Under the pieces are notes generated by a model. It was given only the letters and a program-made list of their open reading frames with translations. It was not told the DNA's origin and did no database searches. 54,186 nt of DNA from Prevotella sp. (GTDB lineage: Bacteria > Bacteroidota > Bacteroidia > Bacteroidales > Bacteroidaceae): the NCBI GenBank assembly GCA_017623155.1, contig JAGAPR010000016.1, forward strand, positions 1 through 54,186, read 5' to 3'. Both the position numbers and the translations under genes were made by a program. Positions 1-9,716 of this stretch are shown here, piece by piece; the stretch's first letter is position 1; each line of letters opens with the position of its first letter.

Positions 1-1
1 A

Positions 2-475
2 TGTCTTGAATGTACATCCTCAACATTACAAGAAAGTGAAGTATCAGATTTAGGAACTTATCCTGTTTATGGAGCAAATGGTATTGTGGGGTATCTTGAT
101 AGTTATAACACATCTGACGAAGCAATCTATATTGTAAAGGACGGTTCTGGAGTTGGTTCTGTTATCTATGTGAAAGGAAGGTGTTCTGCAACAGGAACTT
201 TGAATATCTTAACTGCGAAACAAGATTATTCACTCCAGTTCCTATACTACTTGCTGAGGGTGTTCAACTATGACCCTTATAAAACAGGAATGGCAATACC
301 ACACATTTACTTCAAAGACTATGGAAAGGCCAAAATATTTTGTCCACCTTATGCAGGGCAACTCCGATATGCACAAATGTTGGATGCTATAGACTCCAAG
401 CTATTAACAGAACAGAAATTTTTAATCAGTTTAAATTGCCAGAAACAATACTTGCTCCGTCAGATGTTTATATGA
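2..475 (+). pseudogene. hsdS: Silent hsdS half-cassette A (cut by window edge)
   Basis: This frame is open from the left edge to a TGA at 473-475 (157 codons) and has no start in the window. It encodes one HsdS target-recognition domain (GTYPVYGANGIVGYL early on) and a C-terminal conserved helix ending QKQYLLRQMFI. The same ending occurs in cassettes B and C and in the full-length hsdS. With one recognition domain visible and no promoter seen, it is most likely a donor cassette for a switching hsdS, although the missing left part could make it a second full gene. Its stop overlaps that of cassette B in the 8-bp sequence TTATATGA. Confidence 0.75.
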
Positions 476-488
476 ACATTTGACGGAG
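455..488. repeat. Inverted repeat at tail-to-tail junction of cassettes A and B
   Basis: The arms CTCCGTCAGATGTT and AACATTTGACGGAG face each other around TATATG with about two mismatches. They encode the identical C-terminal LLRQMFI of both cassettes. A weaker copy lies at the C/hsdS junction, 1645-1670. This shared 3' end gives inverted homology for recombination and may also act as a two-way transcript terminator. Confidence 0.7.
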
Positions 489-1117
489 AAGATACTGTTT
501 TTGAGTTACATACTGTTCAAGCATTGCTCTTTCGGTGCTTATCTTCATTGCTATACTGTTCAATACTGAGTGTATTCGCCTTTGATTATCCAAAGATGGC
601 AAAGTAATGCTTGCCTTTTCGAAGTCTGCCTTGCAAAGATTAAACCGTGTGCTTCCTTGTGCAAACGGATATATGAACTTCCTGAACGGAGTGGAAGAAA
701 CGTAATATGACAGGTATGGTGGATATGCCTGTTTTTCATTCACGATATGAATGCCAAAACAAAAGCTATTCAAATACACTTCAGCATGTCCTAAATAAAC
801 AGCTCCAATCCCCACTTCTTCTGGTGTTTCAGAAGAGAGAGTAAACAGCACATCACCATATTGGACAACATTCTGTTTCTCACCTTCGTCTATTCGAACA
901 TATTGATAGTCGTTCTCATTCACGACATTATTTGAATAGACATTCAAATATGTTATGAATGGTTTACCTGTTCCAAAATCCTCTGCTGACTTTCCTGACA
1001 ATCCAGAGTACGAATATCCTAATTTGTCAAAGGAAGTCCGTATATCATCACCATATCTCTTGTATAAAGAATCATTTAGCCCCTTGATTAAGGATTTTAT
1101 ATTTTGTAGGTCTGCGA
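468..1117 (-). pseudogene. hsdS: Silent hsdS half-cassette B
   Basis: The minus-strand frame is open from about 1202, but hsdS-like sequence begins near 1117 at a DLQNIKSLIKGL segment. That segment aligns with the central DLKKLKSAIIEK spacer helix of the full-length hsdS. One recognition domain follows (YSYSGLSGKSAEDFG, then ITYLNVYSN), then a C-terminal helix ending TQKQYLLRQMFI. The apparent N-terminal 25-30 residues are back-translation of cassette C and are not HsdS. There is no promoter of its own. The cassette is head-to-head with C and tail-to-tail with A. I infer a silent specificity donor; how it is recombined is not shown. Confidence 0.78.
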
Positions 1118-1659
1118 TTTCGGAAAGACTTTTCAAAGGTGTAAAAGGCTCTACAGTTCTGCTGTCCGATATTTGTGACATTGTTAAGGGCAAACAAATC
1201 AATGGGGAAAATCTATCTGAGAGTGGTAATTATTATGTAATGAATGGCGGTACAGAACCATCTGGTTATTATGACGATTACAATGTAGAAGCCAATACTA
1301 TTTCAATAAGTGAGGGCGGTAACTCTTGCGGATATGTGCAATTCAACACATCGCCTTTTTGGAGCGGAGGTCATTGTTATTCCATTCAGGACATTACAGA
1401 CAATGTGGACAATCTGTACTTGTACCATTATCTCAAATCGAAAGAAGATGCCATAATGAAATTACGCATCGGCTCTGGCTTACCCAATATTCAGAAGAAA
1501 GACTTGGCGATGTTTAAGATAATAATACCGACAGTTGAGCAGCAACTAAAAATCTCAACATTTCTGTCATCACTTGAAAGAAAAGTTGAGATTGAAGAAA
1601 GAATACAGAATGCCTTACTCAAAGAGAAACAATACTTATTGCACCAAATGTTTATATGA
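1105..1659 (+). pseudogene. hsdS: Silent hsdS half-cassette C
   Basis: The plus-strand frame is open from 955, but resemblance to HsdS starts near 1105 at RSAISERL, which matches KSAIIEKH in the spacer helix of the full-length hsdS. The DNA shares GTCTGCGATT there. A recognition domain of another type follows (VLLSDICDIVKGK, then YYVMNGG), then a C-terminal helix ending EKQYLLHQMFI. It meets the full-length hsdS tail to tail, with stops overlapping in TTATATGA. Inversion between the two spacer-helix sites would exchange this domain with the second domain of the expressed gene. That is inference from the layout. Confidence 0.78.
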
Positions 1660-2866
1660 ACATCTGACGAAGTAAATATGTCTTCTGACCGTTTAGCAAA
1701 CTAATGTAAATGTTTTCAATATTCATTTTTGCATCCAAGGCTAATAAACACTTAGCCATTCTATTTTGTTCTTCCAAAGAAGGTAAGAATAGTTTGGCTT
1801 TTTCAATATCAGTATAATGCAAATGAATTATGGTGCTTCCCTTTGCAAATTTTGCCAATTGCCTTTTGGCGATATGATTGAAGTAGTAACTTAGATATTG
1901 GGCATTAAAGTTAGTACTGATGTGAATTCCAAACATATCACCGCCCAATATAACCCCATCTACATTAATGACAGATGGGGCAATTAAGGACATTGCGTCA
2001 ACAGTTGTTGAAGAAGGAAACAACAAATCTCCTTTCTTACTCAAAATCATGCCCTCTGTTTTGTTCGTATGACTTTCTATTTGAGAAATTATTTCGCCAT
2101 AAGTCGTAAATAGCTCTCCATATATAACACAAGGCATTCCTGTTTCAGCCAAATCATCCTTTGCCAAATTGCCAACATTAAAAGGTTCGCCCAAATCTGT
2201 GACACAGACTATCTGTTTTTCGGTTTGACTATAATGTTTTTCAATAATCGCAGACTTTAGTTTCTTCAAATCCTCAATGATTTTGTTTTGGGTAGCAATG
2301 CGCTCGTCTATGAGAGACAATAGACGTGTTATCTTCTTTTGTTCCTCAATGGCAGGATGATAAACTCTAATATGCTTTAAGTTTTCACCATACAGGTGTA
2401 CGACAGAAACACCTTGGGCGACACGAGCGATGTCTTTTTTACGAGCACCATTAAGTTGATAGGCAAAGAATCCTCCATCATCATGTTTGAGTCTTATGAT
2501 ATTCAAATCTCCACCCAGCAGGATGTTATTAAATGGAACACATCGAGCTGTTGATATTTCTATAGCAGTTTCTCCAGAACATGGGATTATGACATCATTA
2601 GCCTTACTTTTAACCAGCGATGATGAATCCAACTCTGTTCTACTATATACCTCATTAATAATTTCAGACTTGTACTTGGTATAAAGTTCACCATACAATA
2701 TACAAGGAGAGCCCTGTTCAGATAATTGATCTTTAGATATTCCACTGCCTTTTGTTATCTCTGAAATTTTGCCCAATGTAGTTTCCTCCCACTCCCCACT
2801 GAACTCCGGGAATCTCAAATGGGGAACATTAAGGACTTTTTTATCTTTATTTTCTGCCATAGTCAT
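1652..2866 (-). CDS. hsdS: Type I restriction enzyme specificity subunit HsdS (full-length)
   Basis: This is the DNA-recognition subunit that directs HsdM methylation and HsdR cleavage. At 404 aa it has the normal two-half layout. The first recognition domain covers about residues 20-165 (GEWEETTLGKISEITKG), followed by a central spacer helix with LLSLIDERIATQNKIIEDLK. The second domain covers about 215-355, and the C-terminal helix ends KTYLLRQMFI. The start may be at 2866 or at a second ATG, 2860 (MAENKDKK), which sits better behind the AAAAAAAGA tract. It is the last gene of the R-M operon and the only complete hsdS in view. The downstream cassettes make phase-variable specificity likely. 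Confidence 0.93.
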   Translation of the reverse strand: MTMAENKDKKVLNVPHLRFPEFSGEWEETTLGKISEITKGSGISKDQLSEQGSPCILYGELYTKYKSEIINEVYSRTELDSSSLVKSKANDVIIPCSGETAIEISTARCVPFNNILLGGDLNIIRLKHDDGGFFAYQLNGARKKDIARVAQGVSVVHLYGENLKHIRVYHPAIEEQKKITRLLSLIDERIATQNKIIEDLKKLKSAIIEKHYSQTEKQIVCVTDLGEPFNVGNLAKDDLAETGMPCVIYGELFTTYGEIISQIESHTNKTEGMILSKKGDLLFPSSTTVDAMSLIAPSVINVDGVILGGDMFGIHISTNFNAQYLSYYFNHIAKRQLAKFAKGSTIIHLHYTDIEKAKLFLPSLEEQNRMAKCLLALDAKMNIENIYISLLNGQKTYLLRQMFI

Positions 2867-3016
2867 TCTTTTTTTATGAATCTGATTACGTAAACAGGTC
2901 GCTGTTTGCTACTGGTTATTTGTGTCCTTTCTAAAACTGCAACAGGCTGTTGCAGAAATTACCGTATTCGACCAACTTAATATTCTCAGATTTATCATTG
3001 CTGTCTTTTATAAATT

Positions 3017-3114
3017 CTCAGTTACATGCCGGTTACACAAAATATTCATTGATATTCAGCGTTTTATAATTGCTACCGCCAATTTTAACCCCGCTCAGTT
3101 ACATGCCAGTTACA
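3017..3114. repeat. Pair of 21-bp direct repeats upstream of hsdS
   Basis: CTCAGTTACATGCC(G/A)GTTACA occurs at 3017-3037 and 3094-3114, one mismatch apart and 77 bp start to start. Both lie in the 252-bp gap between the AlbA_2 gene and hsdS. No convincing reading frame covers them. They may be protein-binding sites, recombination sites or remnants of an insertion; the sequence does not decide. Confidence 0.6.
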
Positions 3115-3118
3115 TGTG

Positions 3119-4558
3119 TCAAACATAATATGGAACATAAGTCATAAGCTTTTTAGAAACAATATCCGTGTTTGCAACCTTAATCAGATTGGCTTCTACT
3201 GTATCTGCAATTATCCGTGAAGCCACAGAAGATTGAGTTTTCTTTAAATTGAAACGTTCTCTGACTGATTGGTTGTTCATGCTTTTACCGTCCTCGTTGA
3301 GCAAACATGCGTGTTGATAACAAGCCCCGACTTTTTCCTCCTTAGTCATGTCGTTGAGTTCTTTGTGTGGGTATAGCGTTACTCGTGTACAAGACTCCTC
3401 TTTTGCAATACGTGGAGCCGGAAGATACATCTCCTCAATGGCGGCAATGGCACGGTCTATACCACTTCCACGTCTTTCGCAAAAACCGAGCAAAAACATT
3501 TGTTCTGCCAATTTCTCGTTACGAGAGTTTGGTGGTAAATCTATCAGTCGGTTCACATCATTTAGAGGTGCACCAGGATTAGTTATCACAATTCTGTTTG
3601 CAAAAATTTCAATGGTTATATTTATTCCAGATATGCCGAAATCTTGATGAACAAGAGCATTTGCCACAAATTCTCGGATTGCGACTCTTGGGTATTCTGC
3701 AACGGATTCTCTTTTCACATTAATATTTTCTGTTGATACGTACTTCATTATAAAATCTATGAGACCTTCAAAACCGACAGCATAACCAGACTGCTCGATT
3801 TGTTCTATGAGCATATCACGGTTATTTGTTCCAACATATTTTCTCACGATTACCTTTCTGCTTGCCAGTTCCTTAAAATCATTAAGATTATTGGCAAACA
3901 GTATAGCCCCAAGATTTGTTATATTCCATAAGTCTTCAGCACCTGTACAAATGCCGTATTCTGTCATTCTTGAAATAATACTGTCTATGGACTTTGGAAT
4001 GTCCTTATCGAGTAATTCGAATAACTTGCGGAAATTAAGCAAAAGGAGAAGGTCGTTTTTGCTGACATTCCTTTTTGCCATCCTCTCCTCAAAACAGATT
4101 CCTTGTGATGTAGCTATAATATTGCGTACTTGAAGATCAGACATACGCAAGGTTTGCCCATTAGAGCGACAATAGGCTTCCCGGTAGTCTTTCCCACGTA
4201 GATAAATTGGTTTCTCTCTTTGTTCTGGAACATAAACGAACAATACAGGATGACCTTCATATTCCAATATAGTATGATCAATATCAATTGCATTGGAAAG
4301 ATTATTATGAGCGATATTTCCGAGTCTTTTCACAATTTGCTCAACCTGTTCTTTGTTCAAAGTGGTAAATGTTGCATCGTCATTAATGCCGTAAACAAGC
4401 ATTCCTCCTCCTTGATGATTGCTAAAGGCACATATATGCTGAGCCAATCTATCTGTCTTTGACGAAAGTCCGCTTTTCCAATCCAGTTCACTTAATTCAT
4501 GCGGAACAGGTGTCATACTTGCCCTTAGAATCTCTAACGCTTTATCTTTCCAATCCAT
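3119..4558 (-). CDS. AlbA_2 (Schlafen-type) domain protein with HATPase_c_4-like domain
   Basis: The 479-aa protein starts with an AlbA_2 domain: ELDWKSGLSSKTDRLAQ, then ICAFSNHQGGGMLVYGIND at about residues 45-65. It continues into a HATPase_c_4-like region (AIREFVANALVHQDFG, then RIVITNPGAP and ERRGSGIDRAI, about 285-390). A C-terminal winged-helix-like segment follows. Such proteins are often called ATP-dependent helicase or transcriptional regulator, but their biochemical role is unsettled. The gene sits between hsdM (95 bp away) and hsdS (252 bp away), same strand. This association is common in Bacteroidetes type I loci. A part in control or modulation of the R-M system is inferred. Confidence 0.85.
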   Translation of the reverse strand: MDWKDKALEILRASMTPVPHELSELDWKSGLSSKTDRLAQHICAFSNHQGGGMLVYGINDDATFTTLNKEQVEQIVKRLGNIAHNNLSNAIDIDHTILEYEGHPVLFVYVPEQREKPIYLRGKDYREAYCRSNGQTLRMSDLQVRNIIATSQGICFEERMAKRNVSKNDLLLLLNFRKLFELLDKDIPKSIDSIISRMTEYGICTGAEDLWNITNLGAILFANNLNDFKELASRKVIVRKYVGTNNRDMLIEQIEQSGYAVGFEGLIDFIMKYVSTENINVKRESVAEYPRVAIREFVANALVHQDFGISGINITIEIFANRIVITNPGAPLNDVNRLIDLPPNSRNEKLAEQMFLLGFCERRGSGIDRAIAAIEEMYLPAPRIAKEESCTRVTLYPHKELNDMTKEEKVGACYQHACLLNEDGKSMNNQSVRERFNLKKTQSSVASRIIADTVEANLIKVANTDIVSKKLMTYVPYYV

Positions 4559-4574
4559 ATCTCTTTCTATTTTG

Positions 4575-4650
4575 GAATTTACTTTGCAAATAAAAAGTTG
4601 TTGATAATCAAAGATTTATTAAGCAACAGAATTTACTTTGCAAATAAAAA
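4575..4650. repeat. Pair of 22-bp direct repeats between hsdM and the AlbA_2 gene
   Basis: An identical 22-bp sequence containing GAATTTACTTTGCAAAT occurs at 4575-4596 and 4629-4650, the second touching the 3' end of hsdM. On the plus strand TTTACTTTG is one base off the Bacteroidetes -7 box, and would point into hsdM antisense. They could equally mark the ends of a small past insertion or be operator sites. Confidence 0.6.
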
Positions 4651-4653
4651 AAC

Positions 4654-6198
4654 TTATTCTACTATTCCCAATTCTTTCAGATATACCTCAATCTCCTTAT
4701 CCAACTCGGCACGCTTGGCTTCCAATTCCTTGATTTCAGCCATTACCGCCTTGATGTCGATAGGTTCTTCCTCTTCAAAGGTATCTACATAACGGGGAAT
4801 ATTCAAGTTGTAGTCGTTCTCTTCCACCTCCTTTAAGGTTGCGAGATGGCTGTATTTCTCTATCTCCTTACGCTCGCGATAGGTTTCCACTATCTTTTGG
4901 ATGTGCTGCGGACGGAGTTTGTTCTGCGTCTTCACCTTCTCAAACTCCTTGCTGGCATCGATGAACAGGATATTGTCATCCTCTTTACGACATTTTTTGA
5001 AAACGAGAATGCAAGTCGGAATGCTCGTACCATAGAATATGTTGGCCGGCAAACCGATAATGGCATCAATATAGTTCTTCTTTTCGATGAGAAAACGGCG
5101 GATGACACCTTCCGCATTACCACGGAACAACACACCATGAGGAGCCACACAAGCCATCGTGCCGCCCTCATTCAAATGGTAAATCATGTGAAGTATAAAG
5201 GCGTAGTCGGCAGTCTTGCGTGGTGCAAGGCGTCCTGCTTTGCTGAAGCGGTCATCGTTATTAAACTTTTCCGCCGCACTCCATTCGGCAGAGAACGGAG
5301 GATTGGCTACAACGGCATCAAACTGCTCCTCGGGGAAGGCATCGGCTTCGAGCGTGTCACCGTTCTCTATGCAGAAATCGCTGAACTTCACGCCATGCAG
5401 CAGCATGTTCATACGTGCAAGATTGTAGGTTGTCGGATTCTTTTCCTGTCCGTATATCAAATCGGCTTTGCCGTTTCGTGCCGTACGAAGCAGCAGCGAG
5501 CCGGAGCCACATGTAGGGTCATAGACATTTTTCAGCCGGGTCTTTCCTGTGGTAACGATGTCGGCAAGTATTTGGCTCACCTCCTGTGGGGTATAGAACT
5601 CGCCCGCTTTCTTTCCGGCACCGGCGGCAAACTGACCTATCATATATTCGTAAGCATCACCGAGAATGTCAATATCGGAAGCCTCGCTCAGTCCGAAATC
5701 TATGTCATCGAGTGCCAGCAGCACGTTGCTGATAAGCGTATTCTTGTCGTTGGCAGTCTTGCCCAACTTAGGTGAAGCAAGGTCAATGTCAGAGAAGAGT
5801 CCTCCGAAATCCTCTTCACTATCGTGTCCGATAGTGCTGTCTTCAATCTTCTTCAGCGAGCGTTCGAGCATGGGCAGGATATTTTCCTTGTGCTTGATAG
5901 CCTCAATAACGGACGAATAAAGAAACTCCGGCTCTATGAAATAGCCAAGATTTTCCATACTTATTTCTTTTATTTCGTCTTTCAATTCCTGTTCGGCACT
6001 CTTCCAAGCCTCCTTGAAAGTCATCTCGTCCGCTTCAAGTTCGCTATCAAGATACATCTCTATTTTCTCCGACAGATACTTGTAGAAGATGAATCCGAGG
6101 GTGAAATACATAAAGTCGCTTGCCGACATATTGCCTCGCAATGTATTTGCCACAGTCCAAAGCTGTGTGCGCAGTTTCTGTTGCAGTTCTTCGCTCAT
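4654..6198 (-). CDS. hsdM: Type I restriction-modification system DNA methyltransferase HsdM
   Basis: This is the modification subunit that transfers methyl groups from S-adenosylmethionine to adenine N6. In 514 aa it shows the N-terminal HsdM bundle (LWTVANTLRGNMSASDF, residues 13-29). The entry to the methyltransferase domain is GEFYTPQEV (199-207). The SAM-binding motif I is DPTCGSGSLL (227-236) and the catalytic NPPF is at 299-302. The C terminus is a coiled coil (KELEAKRAELDKEI) that contacts HsdS. Length is normal. It starts 11 bp after the cysteine-peptidase gene, so the two are probably cotranscribed and translationally linked. Confidence 0.96.
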   Translation of the reverse strand: MSEELQQKLRTQLWTVANTLRGNMSASDFMYFTLGFIFYKYLSEKIEMYLDSELEADEMTFKEAWKSAEQELKDEIKEISMENLGYFIEPEFLYSSVIEAIKHKENILPMLERSLKKIEDSTIGHDSEEDFGGLFSDIDLASPKLGKTANDKNTLISNVLLALDDIDFGLSEASDIDILGDAYEYMIGQFAAGAGKKAGEFYTPQEVSQILADIVTTGKTRLKNVYDPTCGSGSLLLRTARNGKADLIYGQEKNPTTYNLARMNMLLHGVKFSDFCIENGDTLEADAFPEEQFDAVVANPPFSAEWSAAEKFNNDDRFSKAGRLAPRKTADYAFILHMIYHLNEGGTMACVAPHGVLFRGNAEGVIRRFLIEKKNYIDAIIGLPANIFYGTSIPTCILVFKKCRKEDDNILFIDASKEFEKVKTQNKLRPQHIQKIVETYRERKEIEKYSHLATLKEVEENDYNLNIPRYVDTFEEEEPIDIKAVMAEIKELEAKRAELDKEIEVYLKELGIVE

Positions 6199-6209
6199 AT
6201 CTATTTCTC

Positions 6210-6860
6210 TTATATGCGTTCAATAATTAAAGTGTCTGATATTTGAATTGCAGGACAGTTGTATGGATTGTCTGTCAAACATTGATGTTTATATTTCCCA
6301 TTAAACATATCTAAAGATATAACCATATTCCAATATGAAGTAGGATTGCATGTATATCCCGGGTCTAAACAAAAGACATGGAATAATCCTTCTTCATCAT
6401 CTTCGTACCCTATGGCTAAAACGGCATGTCCTCCTTTTTTAAAATCTACACCTAAAACAATTGGCTGGTCTTTATCAATTATGTTTTTGATTTGTGCCTT
6501 GAAACTATCTTTTGCCTCGGAACAATCGCTTCCAGAATAAACTGCATGAACTTTTGTTCCAAAAGAACGATTGACAAGCCTTGCAAGCTCATCAAAATAT
6601 AGTCCTCCACGAACTAAGCCATGTTTGTCAAAAAACTCATGAAATAGTTGCTTAATTTCTGGACTCTTCTTGATCCTATCATATATGTCTTCAAGTTGGT
6701 TTCTACTAATACATTTTTGGATTAGTAAATCCATCATTAAAGTGTATATTGAACATGCTCCATCTATATCACCTTGGCGAATATGTACAGGGTAAAAATG
6801 TCTGTTTTTTACACAACATCCATTCTCTGTCAAATATAGACTATTTATAACTTTTATCAT
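6210..6860 (-). CDS. Predicted papain-fold (C39-like) cysteine peptidase inside the R-M operon
   Basis: The 216-aa product is not a standard R-M subunit. It shows the pattern of a papain-like peptidase or transglutaminase fold. Gln29 and Cys36 sit in RQGDIDGACSIYTLM, followed by a long helix. His145 lies in KKGGHAVLAIGY and Asp166 in FCLDPGY. That gives the Gln-Cys-His-Asp order and spacing expected of the fold. No signal peptide or membrane segment is visible, so it should be cytoplasmic. It lies 15 bp after hsdR and 11 bp before hsdM. Two sampled lines read about one third GC, against about 43-53% in hsdR and hsdM, which suggests insertion as cargo. Substrate and role are unknown. Confidence 0.8.
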   Translation of the reverse strand: MIKVINSLYLTENGCCVKNRHFYPVHIRQGDIDGACSIYTLMMDLLIQKCISRNQLEDIYDRIKKSPEIKQLFHEFFDKHGLVRGGLYFDELARLVNRSFGTKVHAVYSGSDCSEAKDSFKAQIKNIIDKDQPIVLGVDFKKGGHAVLAIGYEDDEEGLFHVFCLDPGYTCNPTSYWNMVISLDMFNGKYKHQCLTDNPYNCPAIQISDTLIIERI

Positions 6861-6875
6861 GTCATTTATTTTATA

Positions 6876-9716
6876 TTATTCCCAACTAAATGTACTTATA
6901 ATATTTCTCAACTTTGTTATCAAACTTTTCAGCAGCCAAGAGCGTTGCATAAGACGAAGCCCTTTCTTCTGTTTGATGGCACGCTGAAGTATTTCCGGTT
7001 TCTCGCGTTGCAGATAGTCGTACTCCTGTACATATTTGACAAGAGCCTTTTCGTCAATGTCTTCCTCCTTTGCCAGATCGGAAATGGCACGCAAACGAGC
7101 TTCTTTAACATATTTCGTCAGGCGGCTTTCCAAATCCATCGTTCCATCTGCCTTGCTGCGAGTGAAGCCCTCGTGGTCGTTATCGACATTCTCACGGATG
7201 AAGTTGTCTATGATGCGTGTCTTGTTGCGCATCACAGGGTCTTTTATCATCGTGTCTATGATATGCTGGCGCTTTTCTCCGTAGTCATCACTGTCAGGAT
7301 TGAGGTCGGCTATCAGTTCGAGAATGTATGCCACATTGATGACATCGCTGTGAAGCAGTTCAAGGCAGAAGTCTATGTCGGTGATTTCTCCCTGCTGGTC
7401 TTCTGCAACCATGTTTGATGTTTCATCCGTTCCCGTTTCACGTTCGTCATTCTCGGTAGAGATAAAGCCAAGTGTCATGTCAAGGTACTTGGAACGATAG
7501 TCATTGAACTGCTGGTCGGTCATTTCCCATGCGGGGGCATCAGCATCAAACTCCTCGTATATCTGTATTTCGGAACGTTTCTTGATAATGTCTCTGAATG
7601 CAAGGATGAAGGCGCGCTTGTCATATTCGTTCTGAATGCGGTCAACAGATGCCATGTCGGGGTAACGTGTCAGGAAGGTATGGCACAGGGTGTTCAGTTC
7701 CTTCTTTACATCTTCGAATGGCGCACGCAACACAAAGCCCAATGCCTCGGGAGCGTTGGTGTTACTGAACAGTTTGACGGCCTTATCCACATTGTCTTTC
7801 ATATTGCGGAAACAGACCACCTTTCCAAACCTCTTTTTCTCGTTGAGCACTCGGTTAGTGCGGCTGAATGCTTGCAGGAGTCCGTGATATTCCAGATTCT
7901 TGTCAACATAGAGCGTGTTGAGCTTCTTGGCATCAAAGCCCGTGAGGAACATTCCGACAACAAGCAGCAGGTCGAGCGGCTCCATGTCGGCACGCTTCTT
8001 CTTCATGCGCAGGTTGATGTCGTCATAATATGCGCTGAAATTATCGGTCGAGAAGTTGGTGTGGAACATACCGTTGTAATCGTCCATGATAGCCTGCAAC
8101 TCGTCTGCCGTCACTTTCTCATTGGCAAAGCCTTGGTTCATGCCTGTCTGCTCGTCGTCCTGACTGTCATTTGCAGCATAAGTGAACACCGCTCCGATGC
8201 GTATCTTCGGATTGAGTTCCTTGAATATCTTGTAGTAGCGAAGCAGCATGGGTACTGACTGTATGGCAAACAGGGCGTTGAAATCTCCATCGTATGTCGA
8301 TTTATTGAAGTTGTTGAGGATAAACTGTGCTATCTCCCTCATGCGTTTCTCTTCCATCACATCAACATCGCCACTCTCCTTGTAATATTCCACCAAGAAA
8401 CCCAGCACGTTCTCATCGGCTATGGCATCCTTGATAAGATAACGGTGGAGACAATCGCCAAACACCTCGGCTGTGGTGTGTTCGCCTCTTGCATTCTCAG
8501 AGAAGATAGGTGTGCCGGTAAAACCGAATATCTGTAGGTTCTTGAAGAAATGCACAATATTCTTGTGGCACTCGCCAAAATGACTGCGATGACATTCGTC
8601 GAAAATCATCACTACCTTTTGGTCTTTCACCTCTTGCAGGTGTTTGTTGTAGTAGTTTCGGGTGACGGCACAATTAAGTTTTTGAATGGTGGTAATGATG
8701 ATTTTTGAGTTACCGCCAAGTCGCTTGATAAGCTCGTAGGTATTGTCCGTTCCATCCACGGCACCCGGTTCAAAGGCTTCGTATTCCGACTGGGTCTGGG
8801 TATCGAGGTCATGACGGTCAACCACAAACATCACTTTGTCAATACCGTCAATCTCGCTGACCAACTGCGCGGCCTTGAATGAAGTGAGTGTCTTTCCTGC
8901 TCCTGTCGTATGCCAGACGTATCCGTTCTTGTTGGAGTTCTTCACTTTGTCCAATATCTTCTCCACTGCATAGAACTGGTATGGACGAAGTACCATCAAG
9001 CATTTGTCACCCTCATGAAGCACAATGTATTTACCGATGATTTTACCAAGTGTACATTTCTCCAAGAAAAATGCGGCAAACTTATCCAGTTCGTTAAATG
9101 GAACATTGGCAGCATCCGTCCAGTTGAAAGTGAATTTATAGCCACTGTTCGGATTGTTGGCAAAGTAGCGCGTATTGACACCATTGGAGATAACGAATAA
9201 CTGGATATAATCAAACAATCCGTGGAATGATGTCTTATGGTAACGCTGTATCTGATTATACGCCTGTTTGAGTTCTACACCCCGGCGCTTCAGTTCAATC
9301 TGCACCAATGGCAGACCGTTTATAAGAATAGTCACATCGTAACGGCACTTCTTACGACCCTCTACCGTGATTTGATTGGAAACCTGAAATTCATTCTGAC
9401 ACCACTGCTGCCTATTCAGAAATTCCACCCAAATACGCTTCCCGTCTGCCGTGTCAAGCGGATAAAGGTCGCGGAGTTTTTTCGCCTTTTCAAACCGTGT
9501 GCCGCCCTCAAGGTGAATGAGTATCTTTTCAAATTCCTCATCTGTAAATTCTGTACGGCCATGTTCTGCCAACCGTTTACGGTTATGCACCTCCAACTGT
9601 CTTTTGAAATTGGCTTGAAGATTTTCCTCCTCAGCAATTTGGACATATTCATAATCCATCTGCTGAAGTGTGGCGATTAGTCCGGCTTCCAATGCCGCTT
9701 CACTCTGTATAGACAT
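6876..9716 (-). CDS. hsdR: Type I restriction endonuclease subunit HsdR
   Basis: This is the motor and nuclease subunit of the type I complex. The 946-aa protein has an N-terminal PD-(D/E)xK nuclease: Asp127 in CRYDVTIL, then IELKRRG with Glu141 and Lys143, and the downstream QIQRY (Q155, Y159) typical of HsdR. A superfamily 2 translocase follows, with Walker A HTTGAGKT near 269-276 and DECHRS near 375. The later helicase motifs include GFTGTPIF, LLLVVGMFLTGFDA and QAFSRTNR. A C-terminal helical domain contacts HsdM. All key residues are present, so it should be active. It is first in the minus-strand operon. Confidence 0.96.
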   Translation of the reverse strand: MSIQSEAALEAGLIATLQQMDYEYVQIAEEENLQANFKRQLEVHNRKRLAEHGRTEFTDEEFEKILIHLEGGTRFEKAKKLRDLYPLDTADGKRIWVEFLNRQQWCQNEFQVSNQITVEGRKKCRYDVTILINGLPLVQIELKRRGVELKQAYNQIQRYHKTSFHGLFDYIQLFVISNGVNTRYFANNPNSGYKFTFNWTDAANVPFNELDKFAAFFLEKCTLGKIIGKYIVLHEGDKCLMVLRPYQFYAVEKILDKVKNSNKNGYVWHTTGAGKTLTSFKAAQLVSEIDGIDKVMFVVDRHDLDTQTQSEYEAFEPGAVDGTDNTYELIKRLGGNSKIIITTIQKLNCAVTRNYYNKHLQEVKDQKVVMIFDECHRSHFGECHKNIVHFFKNLQIFGFTGTPIFSENARGEHTTAEVFGDCLHRYLIKDAIADENVLGFLVEYYKESGDVDVMEEKRMREIAQFILNNFNKSTYDGDFNALFAIQSVPMLLRYYKIFKELNPKIRIGAVFTYAANDSQDDEQTGMNQGFANEKVTADELQAIMDDYNGMFHTNFSTDNFSAYYDDINLRMKKKRADMEPLDLLLVVGMFLTGFDAKKLNTLYVDKNLEYHGLLQAFSRTNRVLNEKKRFGKVVCFRNMKDNVDKAVKLFSNTNAPEALGFVLRAPFEDVKKELNTLCHTFLTRYPDMASVDRIQNEYDKRAFILAFRDIIKKRSEIQIYEEFDADAPAWEMTDQQFNDYRSKYLDMTLGFISTENDERETGTDETSNMVAEDQQGEITDIDFCLELLHSDVINVAYILELIADLNPDSDDYGEKRQHIIDTMIKDPVMRNKTRIIDNFIRENVDNDHEGFTRSKADGTMDLESRLTKYVKEARLRAISDLAKEEDIDEKALVKYVQEYDYLQREKPEILQRAIKQKKGLRLMQRSWLLKSLITKLRNIISTFSWE

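Follow-up and report, generated by a model that had tools for sequence, protein, structure and literature searches.

A putative papain-fold cysteine peptidase as exchangeable cargo between hsdR and hsdM of a Prevotella type I restriction operon

The subject of this study is a gene embedded in a type I restriction operon of Prevotella sp. (contig JAGAPR010000016.1; its whole stretch of 54,186 nucleotides is referred to as the window). An intact open reading frame (ORF) with an ATG start and 216 amino acids (aa) lies between hsdR and hsdM at 6210-6860 on the minus strand and encodes a C39_2-like cysteine hydrolase with a predicted papain fold, probably a soluble, cytoplasmic peptidase. The gene is an optional, exchangeable cargo of the hsdR-hsdM gap, and the gap is a general accessory slot. 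A protease-type enzyme recurs in the slot, its alleles differ widely while the restriction system around them hardly varies, and it is reused in unrelated defence operons. We tentatively favour, at somewhat less than an even chance, the reading that it is an autonomous accessory protease effector carried in restriction operons as a second antiviral line, either phage-facing or abortive.

An exchangeable gene between hsdR and hsdM

The upstream operon gene is hsdR (6876-9716, minus strand, 946 aa), which encodes a restriction subunit of EcoR124_C type recognised by Pfam and by NCBIfam hsdR (465 bits). Downstream follows hsdM (4654-6198, minus strand, 514 aa; NCBIfam hsdM, 464 bits), the methyltransferase subunit gene. 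The upstream edge of the slot is the 15-bp junction between the hsdR stop (6876) and the peptidase start (6861-6875, minus strand), the downstream edge the 11-bp junction from the peptidase stop to the hsdM ATG at 6198 (6199-6209, minus strand). Both gaps are exactly as the original prediction, made from the sequence of the window, had given them.

A profile search of 399 genomes of the same family (the family survey) provided 20 uncut operons whose HsdR is at least 70% identical to that of the window. The peptidase occupies the slot in five of them, no gene is seen there in nine, and other genes are present in six. The five are the window, G155, G026, G300 (together with GIY-YIG genes) and G102 (with DUF4268 and PAD; here and below, G numbers denote genomes and L numbers loci). 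The six other slots hold GIY-YIG-type genes in three cases and a DUF5655 protein, a 23S_rRNA_IVP protein and a GmrSD_N-like ORF in one case each. The nearest HsdR relative, in G485 (82% identity), has no gene in the slot. Slot genes of the GIY-YIG (T5orf172), DUF5655, 23S-rRNA-IVP or GmrSD_N-like kinds were seen at L122, L124, L126, L102, L127, L130 and L153.

When the peptidase is present, its sequence can change while the restriction system around it stays the same. The loci L011 and L109 share 99% identity in HsdR and 100% in HsdM (over 235 aa), and their peptidases are 31% identical; for L011 and L021 the values are 98% for HsdR and 33% for the peptidase. In blastn comparisons the 97% identity stops at the hsdR stop codon and returns 22-30 bp ahead of hsdM (96% and 94%). 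Further, three different alleles are carried by P. veroralis, Hallella colorans and G155 on HsdR backgrounds of 97-99% identity, and G046 has another gene in their place. The converse is seen as well: the peptidases of L012 and L040 are 86% identical and their HsdR proteins 52%, and between L024 and L108 the synonymous divergence (dS) is 0.22 for the peptidase, 1.37 for hsdR and 0.96 for hsdM. The same peptidase is found in L028 (Hoylesella timonensis) and L011 (P. veroralis). The ORF is also intact beside damaged partners: next to a broken hsdM in L011, and directly after an HsdR of which only the initial 299 residues are left (over 297 aa, 89% identity with that of the window) in L019, a place that the family survey recovered as L104 (G237).

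The linkage of the peptidase to hsdR and hsdM is real. The family survey found 22 places in 21 genomes: 13 core members (more than 215 bits), eight divergent members (120-145 bits) and one 40-residue fragment. Of the 13 core members, 11 have hsdR, hsdM or both close by in the same orientation, L104 retaining only the truncated HsdR. The two unlinked ones are L107, on a contig of 3.8 kb, and L105, which lies between a gene that we take to be KilA-N-like and a GIY-YIG-cluster ORF. An equivalent search of 393 genomes of the order gave matches in four genomes, with two new places, L152 in a type I operon and L151 beside a large ORF whose twin at L032 carries AlbA_2. In both surveys together, 12 of 15 core-family members adjoin hsdR and/or hsdM, so that the repeated linkage, proposed earlier as a check, is borne out. 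The binomial tail is 2e-30 at an assumed chance of 0.002 and 4e-22 at 0.01; as background, the 21 matched family genomes carry about one hsdM each (23 matches at E values up to 1e-20). As a small control, five other C39_2 matches with E values no higher than 1e-5 were found in the 21 genomes; none was near an hsdM match, the closest on one contig being about 100 kb away. Pattern scans placed hsdR or hsdM within 6 kb in 16 of 58 distinct loci, on the same strand in all 16. Two relatives bear a phage or virus label: L076, on an IMG/VR contig with the order hsdR-peptidase-hsdM-hsdS, and L009, on a scaffold assigned without verification to a faecal phage, which also has an HsdR gene.

The protein and its active site

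An AlphaFold2 model built with 55 homologues as input reached a predicted local distance difference test (pLDDT) score of 91.3 and a predicted template modelling (pTM) score of 0.90. In this model Cys36 starts helix 36-47, His145 is on strand 143-155 and Asp166 comes just after strand 158-165. Foldseek against PDB gave probability 1.00 to entries of IdeS/Mac-1, UfSP, SpeB and staphopain, at identities of 7-23% and TM-scores to the query of 0.27-0.57. The papain/C39-type fold, suggested from the sequence alone, is thereby supported, and the papain-like fold, with Gln, Cys, His and Asp in papain order, places the modelled protein in clan CA. The best viral fold match is an uncharacterised protein of Leptospira phage LE3 (BFVD A0A343LE36).

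The protein had been called unrecognised, and this is right only in part. Pfam Peptidase_C39_2 (PF13529) matches it with 26.4 bits against a cut-off of 24, and a homologue in NZ_CP091789 is annotated as a C39 family peptidase. No more specific model for it was found in Pfam, NCBIfam, PADLOC or PHROGs: NCBIfam gave one match far under its cut-off, PHROGs no convincing match, and no PADLOC family matched at E up to 1. The Peptidase_C39_2 match covers only the His/Asp half of the protein (profile positions 76-142), although in the homologue of G332 it extends over positions 6-142 of 143; the Gln-Cys signature QGxxDGAC belongs to the peptidase family itself and not to Peptidase_C39_2. With E values of 0.01 or lower, this profile recognises 27 of 55 family members; DUF3335, C10, C70 or Gln_amidase match a few of the 55. 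In phmmer, the single window protein had no convincing match in PDB; the family profile hit designed helical repeats at the top, which we disregarded, then weakly Alr0975 (E 0.001) and, at E 0.23, a C39-like chain. The protein has neither a hydrophobic leader nor a membrane segment (best 19-residue Kyte-Doolittle mean 1.08), and Pfam shows no AAA+ domain in it. A bacteriocin-processing C39 transporter of PF03412 type was considered and rejected: the protein is a single soluble domain of 216 aa with no fused ATP-binding cassette (ABC) transporter and no hydrophobic leader (nearby leader peptides were not searched for).

The residues Gln29, Cys36, His145 and Asp166, named in the original prediction as the catalytic set, are correct and conserved among homologues, which are 19-74% identical to the window peptidase. 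In an alignment of 59 homologues Gln29, Cys36 and His145 are each kept in 58 and Asp166 in all 59. Most rows were fetched by a pattern holding QG..DGAC, so the conservation of Gln29 and Cys36 is biased there and only that of His and Asp is unbiased. Members found by profile, with the motif not required, do not share this bias: all ten core members L100-L109 keep Cys, His and Asp, and the eight divergent members keep Cys in seven and both His and Asp in eight. The sole exception in the alignment is L013, which has lost Gln, Cys and His; at L113 another residue takes the place of Cys. Asp33, Gly151, Pro167, Trp177 and Asn178 are also conserved in the core family. The ratio of nonsynonymous to synonymous substitution rates (dN/dS), computable for 12 of 15 peptidase pairs, lies at 0.05-0.22. 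Two of the 12 pairs have dS above 2.5 and are unreliable; the values indicate that the family is under purifying selection. A chance ORF is ruled out by the homologues, the selection and the fold.

Relatives in other loci and possible roles

Two HsdR types are found among the partners of the family, and the peptidase occurs in further kinds of systems. At L010 it accompanies mad7-, mad8- and SspF-like proteins and a PP2C phosphatase, with hsdM- and hsdS-like genes further upstream, an arrangement resembling the methylation-associated defense system (MADS). At L057 the neighbours are an SNF2 helicase (best match DrmD), a type IIG/DrmMI-like methyltransferase and a DruE-like helicase; all three clusters are common to L068, and the first two are also in L060 on the opposite strand. 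SIR2, PLD and HTH_45 genes stand at L007, in clusters common to L037 and L039. DUF6361 and DEAD genes follow the peptidase at L059, AbiEi/AbiEii are found at L033 in common with L035, and an Abi_2 gene stands beside the peptidase at L030. On the tree, which comes from a quick search without bootstrap and has several long branches flagged, the EcoR124-like type I label needs at least eight changes on the starred branches; the family thus moved between systems many times.

A gene of PAD_porph type (peptidyl-arginine/agmatine deiminase-like) adjoins seven of the eight members of the divergent branch (L110-L115 and L117), and the eighth is at a contig end. Such a gene is also present in the type I operon L016/L100, beside L017 and in some AbiE and MADS-like loci; among core members the pairing was noted at L013, L016, L017, L031, L033 and L035. 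Several of these paired loci hold a third gene of about 200 aa (cluster c25). The peptidase and the PAD_porph gene, possibly with c25, may form a separate module.

The operon of the window has the order hsdR-peptidase-hsdM-AlbA_2/HATPase-hsdS. The gap from hsdM to hsdS thus holds a further accessory gene, which by Pfam encodes an SLFN_AlbA_2/HATPase_c_4 protein (3119-4558, minus strand, 479 aa); by profile, AlbA_2/HATPase is matched again in the operons at L021, L023 and L109. The specificity subunit gene hsdS (1652-2866, minus strand, 404 aa) has two target-recognition domains (two stretches of Pfam Methylase_S). Three more hsdS-like stretches with Pfam Methylase_S matches lie on both strands at 86-475 (plus), 468-1202 (minus) and 955-1659 (plus). 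Extra hsdS-like stretches on both strands beside hsdS also occur in phase-variable type I specificity loci, and those within 86-1659 are possibly alternative specificity modules. No inverted repeats of 20 bp or longer (seed 14) were found in window positions 1-4600.

The peptidase gene was also described as strikingly AT-rich, and indeed its GC content is 33% (0.24 at third codon positions, GC3), lower than in hsdR (46%, 0.56) and hsdM (47%, 0.56). However, two other genes of the operon, hsdS (36%) and that for the AlbA protein (39%), are likewise AT-rich. Composition as a proof of foreign origin is weakened by these two genes, though at all 24 type I loci examined peptidase GC3 is below that of every flanking hsdR or hsdM, in some by a margin of just 0.01-0.03.

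If the peptidase is an autonomous effector, it would be co-expressed with the restriction enzyme and yet act independently of it. It would stay low or latent until an infection gets past restriction, and would then cleave phage proteins or essential host proteins. Many divergent alleles would be kept most likely because the trigger or the substrate is a variable phage protein. We infer the effector role, and the peptidase chemistry is itself putative, a deamidase or another amidase being the alternative. A broader form of this idea is possible, though we hold it with more doubt: the mobile, allele-swapping protease cassette might be a general phage-facing add-on to DNA-modification defences, with restriction, MADS-like and helicase-nuclease systems recruiting the family into operon slots and strains exchanging alleles on a constant restriction system to track variants of phage proteins.

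Several observations weigh against an effector role. The swapping of alleles could be plain recombination of cargo with no phage-facing cause, and within one clade the peptidase changes at about the pace of HsdR (72% identity between the peptidases of the window and L014, 76% between their HsdR proteins), with no sign of rapid point evolution. A Pseudomonas clade (HcuA) of 12 tree rows (L008, L052, L056, L058, L063-L067, L069, L071 and L072) has common neighbours of non-defence kind; L008, annotated as HcuA, has a glucose/sorbosone dehydrogenase gene and that of an ABC transporter next to it. Nothing on the function of HcuA was found among the literature matches listed. Further, 22 of 82 tree rows fall outside the seven labelled contexts, though several of them have defence-like neighbours, and in L006 and L009, relatives found by blast, hsdR is 1-3 kb away on the opposite strand and not operonic.

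The original prediction had put forward both a second-layer effector and an anti-anti-restriction device, the two readings that we rank first and second. An anti-anti-restriction device, which would protect restriction by cutting phage or plasmid blockers of type I enzymes (DNA mimics, e.g. Ocr or ArdA), agrees with linkage to several kinds of DNA-modification-type restriction systems, and a variable phage target fits the swapping of alleles on a constant restriction-modification background; but the peptidase also stands without recognised restriction genes, next to the deiminase-like gene (L110-L115, L117), AbiEi/AbiEii (L033, L035) or Abi_2 (L030), and we regard this role as unlikely. More improbable is a guarded toxin similar to PrrC, which the type I complex would keep inactive until a phage inhibits or dismantles that complex. 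The gene is placed like prrC, inside a type IC operon (as far as the accessible text of PMC3874165 and PMC12707154 describes it), and the HsdR is of EcoR124_C type, which suggests that the system of the window is type IC. Nevertheless, HsdR proteins 98-99% identical go with peptidases of 31-33% identity, leaving no coupling by sequence, and the partner systems are unrelated. Clamping by specific contacts is unlikely because the peptidase sequence is independent of R and M and common to unrelated systems; likewise, since the partner systems are mutually unrelated, it is improbable that one subunit common to them all serves as target or clamp. An intact ORF beside the broken hsdM of L011 or the truncated hsdR of L019 should not be tolerated if the protein were lethal and restrained by restriction-modification alone, unless the decay is very recent.

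Quite low, too, is the probability that we give to a processing, turnover or regulatory protease for the own operon, serving HsdR maturation, restriction alleviation or establishment control. The tight operon position speaks for it, as may the co-occurrence with systems that need to avoid self-restriction. However, the absence of any gene from the slot in nine of the 20 comparable operons, other genes in six, partner systems without a common substrate and the lack of an AAA+ domain all speak against it. The proposed role in HsdR processing or turnover is not sustained, for near-identical type I systems carry very different peptidases, another gene or none. A maturation or turnover factor is unlikely because the sequence is independent of R and M, often absent and common to unrelated systems, and HsdR maturation or turnover is disfavoured by the optional gene and the swap data. 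The analogy with ClpXP drawn earlier is weak: the EcoR124_C domain suggests type IC, whose alleviation, in the accessible text of the review PMC12707154, is ascribed to assembly failure and distinct from the ClpXP route of types IA and IB. No better are the prospects of an enzyme that has the papain fold but is not a protease (a glutamine deamidase, amidase or acyltransferase); its target would be a protein or a small molecule, and it might act together with the deiminase-like neighbour. Two of 55 members weakly match Pfam Gln_amidase, a papain-fold toxin (best E 0.006), the weak profile match to Alr0975 (E 0.001) concerns what we take to be a phytochelatin-synthase-like protein, and seven of the eight divergent members, as well as some type I, AbiE and MADS-like loci, have the PAD_porph neighbour. 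On the other side, the best structural matches are proteases, and about half of the 55 members match Peptidase_C39_2.

Comparison with known systems

Restriction-linked accessory genes are already known; here a protease-type enzyme is found repeatedly in the same slot. The PrrC precedent and the idea that immunity loci carry suicide genes are in print (in the portions available of PMC3874165, PMC12707154 and PMC3506569). A suicide function has been proposed for genes embedded in type I operons, most of them coding for nucleases (PMC3506569, same portion), in a paper whose main text does not mention a peptidase or protease. Our literature search found no paper that joins "C39 family peptidase" with "restriction-modification", or "methylation-associated defense system" with "protease". 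Among the matches listed, no restriction-linked peptidase of this sort is described by title or start of abstract, subscription papers being mostly outside the search. The accessible portions of PMC12707154, PMC3874165, PMC5183652, PMC12458937, PMC10853773, PMC3506569, PMC7159879, PMC13092281 and PMC12715929 hold no description of the peptidase; "C39" is absent from the main texts of PMC12458937, PMC10853773, PMC7159879 and PMC13092281, and in the part of PMC12715929 that was available it denotes the transporter-type family PF03412. Should the peptidase prove to be an effector, a second line of defence based on proteolysis would exist within restriction systems, and the natural series of alleles on HsdR backgrounds 97-99% identical makes this idea directly testable.

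At the level of the protein, the window peptidase resembles IdeS/Mac-1, UfSP, SpeB and staphopain in the papain-like fold, with Cys at a helix start and His on a strand of the next sheet. IdeS/Mac-1, SpeB and staphopain are secreted bacterial proteins and UfSP is eukaryotic. To Pfam Peptidase_C39_2 the protein is related over the cut-off, but only in its His/Asp half, the QGxxDGAC signature being specific to its family. Alleviation of ClpXP type depends on an AAA+ unfoldase with a compartment protease and is host-general, whereas here we find a papain-fold domain of 216 aa encoded by an optional operon gene.

Predicted prokaryotic nucleoside triphosphate (NTP)-dependent conflict systems likewise contain peptidase domains, trypsin-like, caspase-like and one papain-like; in the accessible text of PMC7159879, however, the papain-like one is read as a peptidoglycan peptidase of a NucA/EAD1 system and no link to hsdR or hsdM is given. 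Closer in arrangement are the R- and M-linked ORFs (rlo/mlo) of Campylobacter, strain-variable ORFs intervening between hsd genes, though these lie between hsdR and hsdS and between hsdS and hsdM, with no peptidase mentioned in the portion of PMC5183652 available. PrrC of EcoprrI (type IC) shares with the peptidase the position of an optional gene inside a type I operon and the standing of a candidate second-line effector (PMC3874165 and PMC12707154, in their accessible text). PrrC is an anticodon nuclease, whereas the gene described here has a protease fold and its alleles are swapped independently of R and M.
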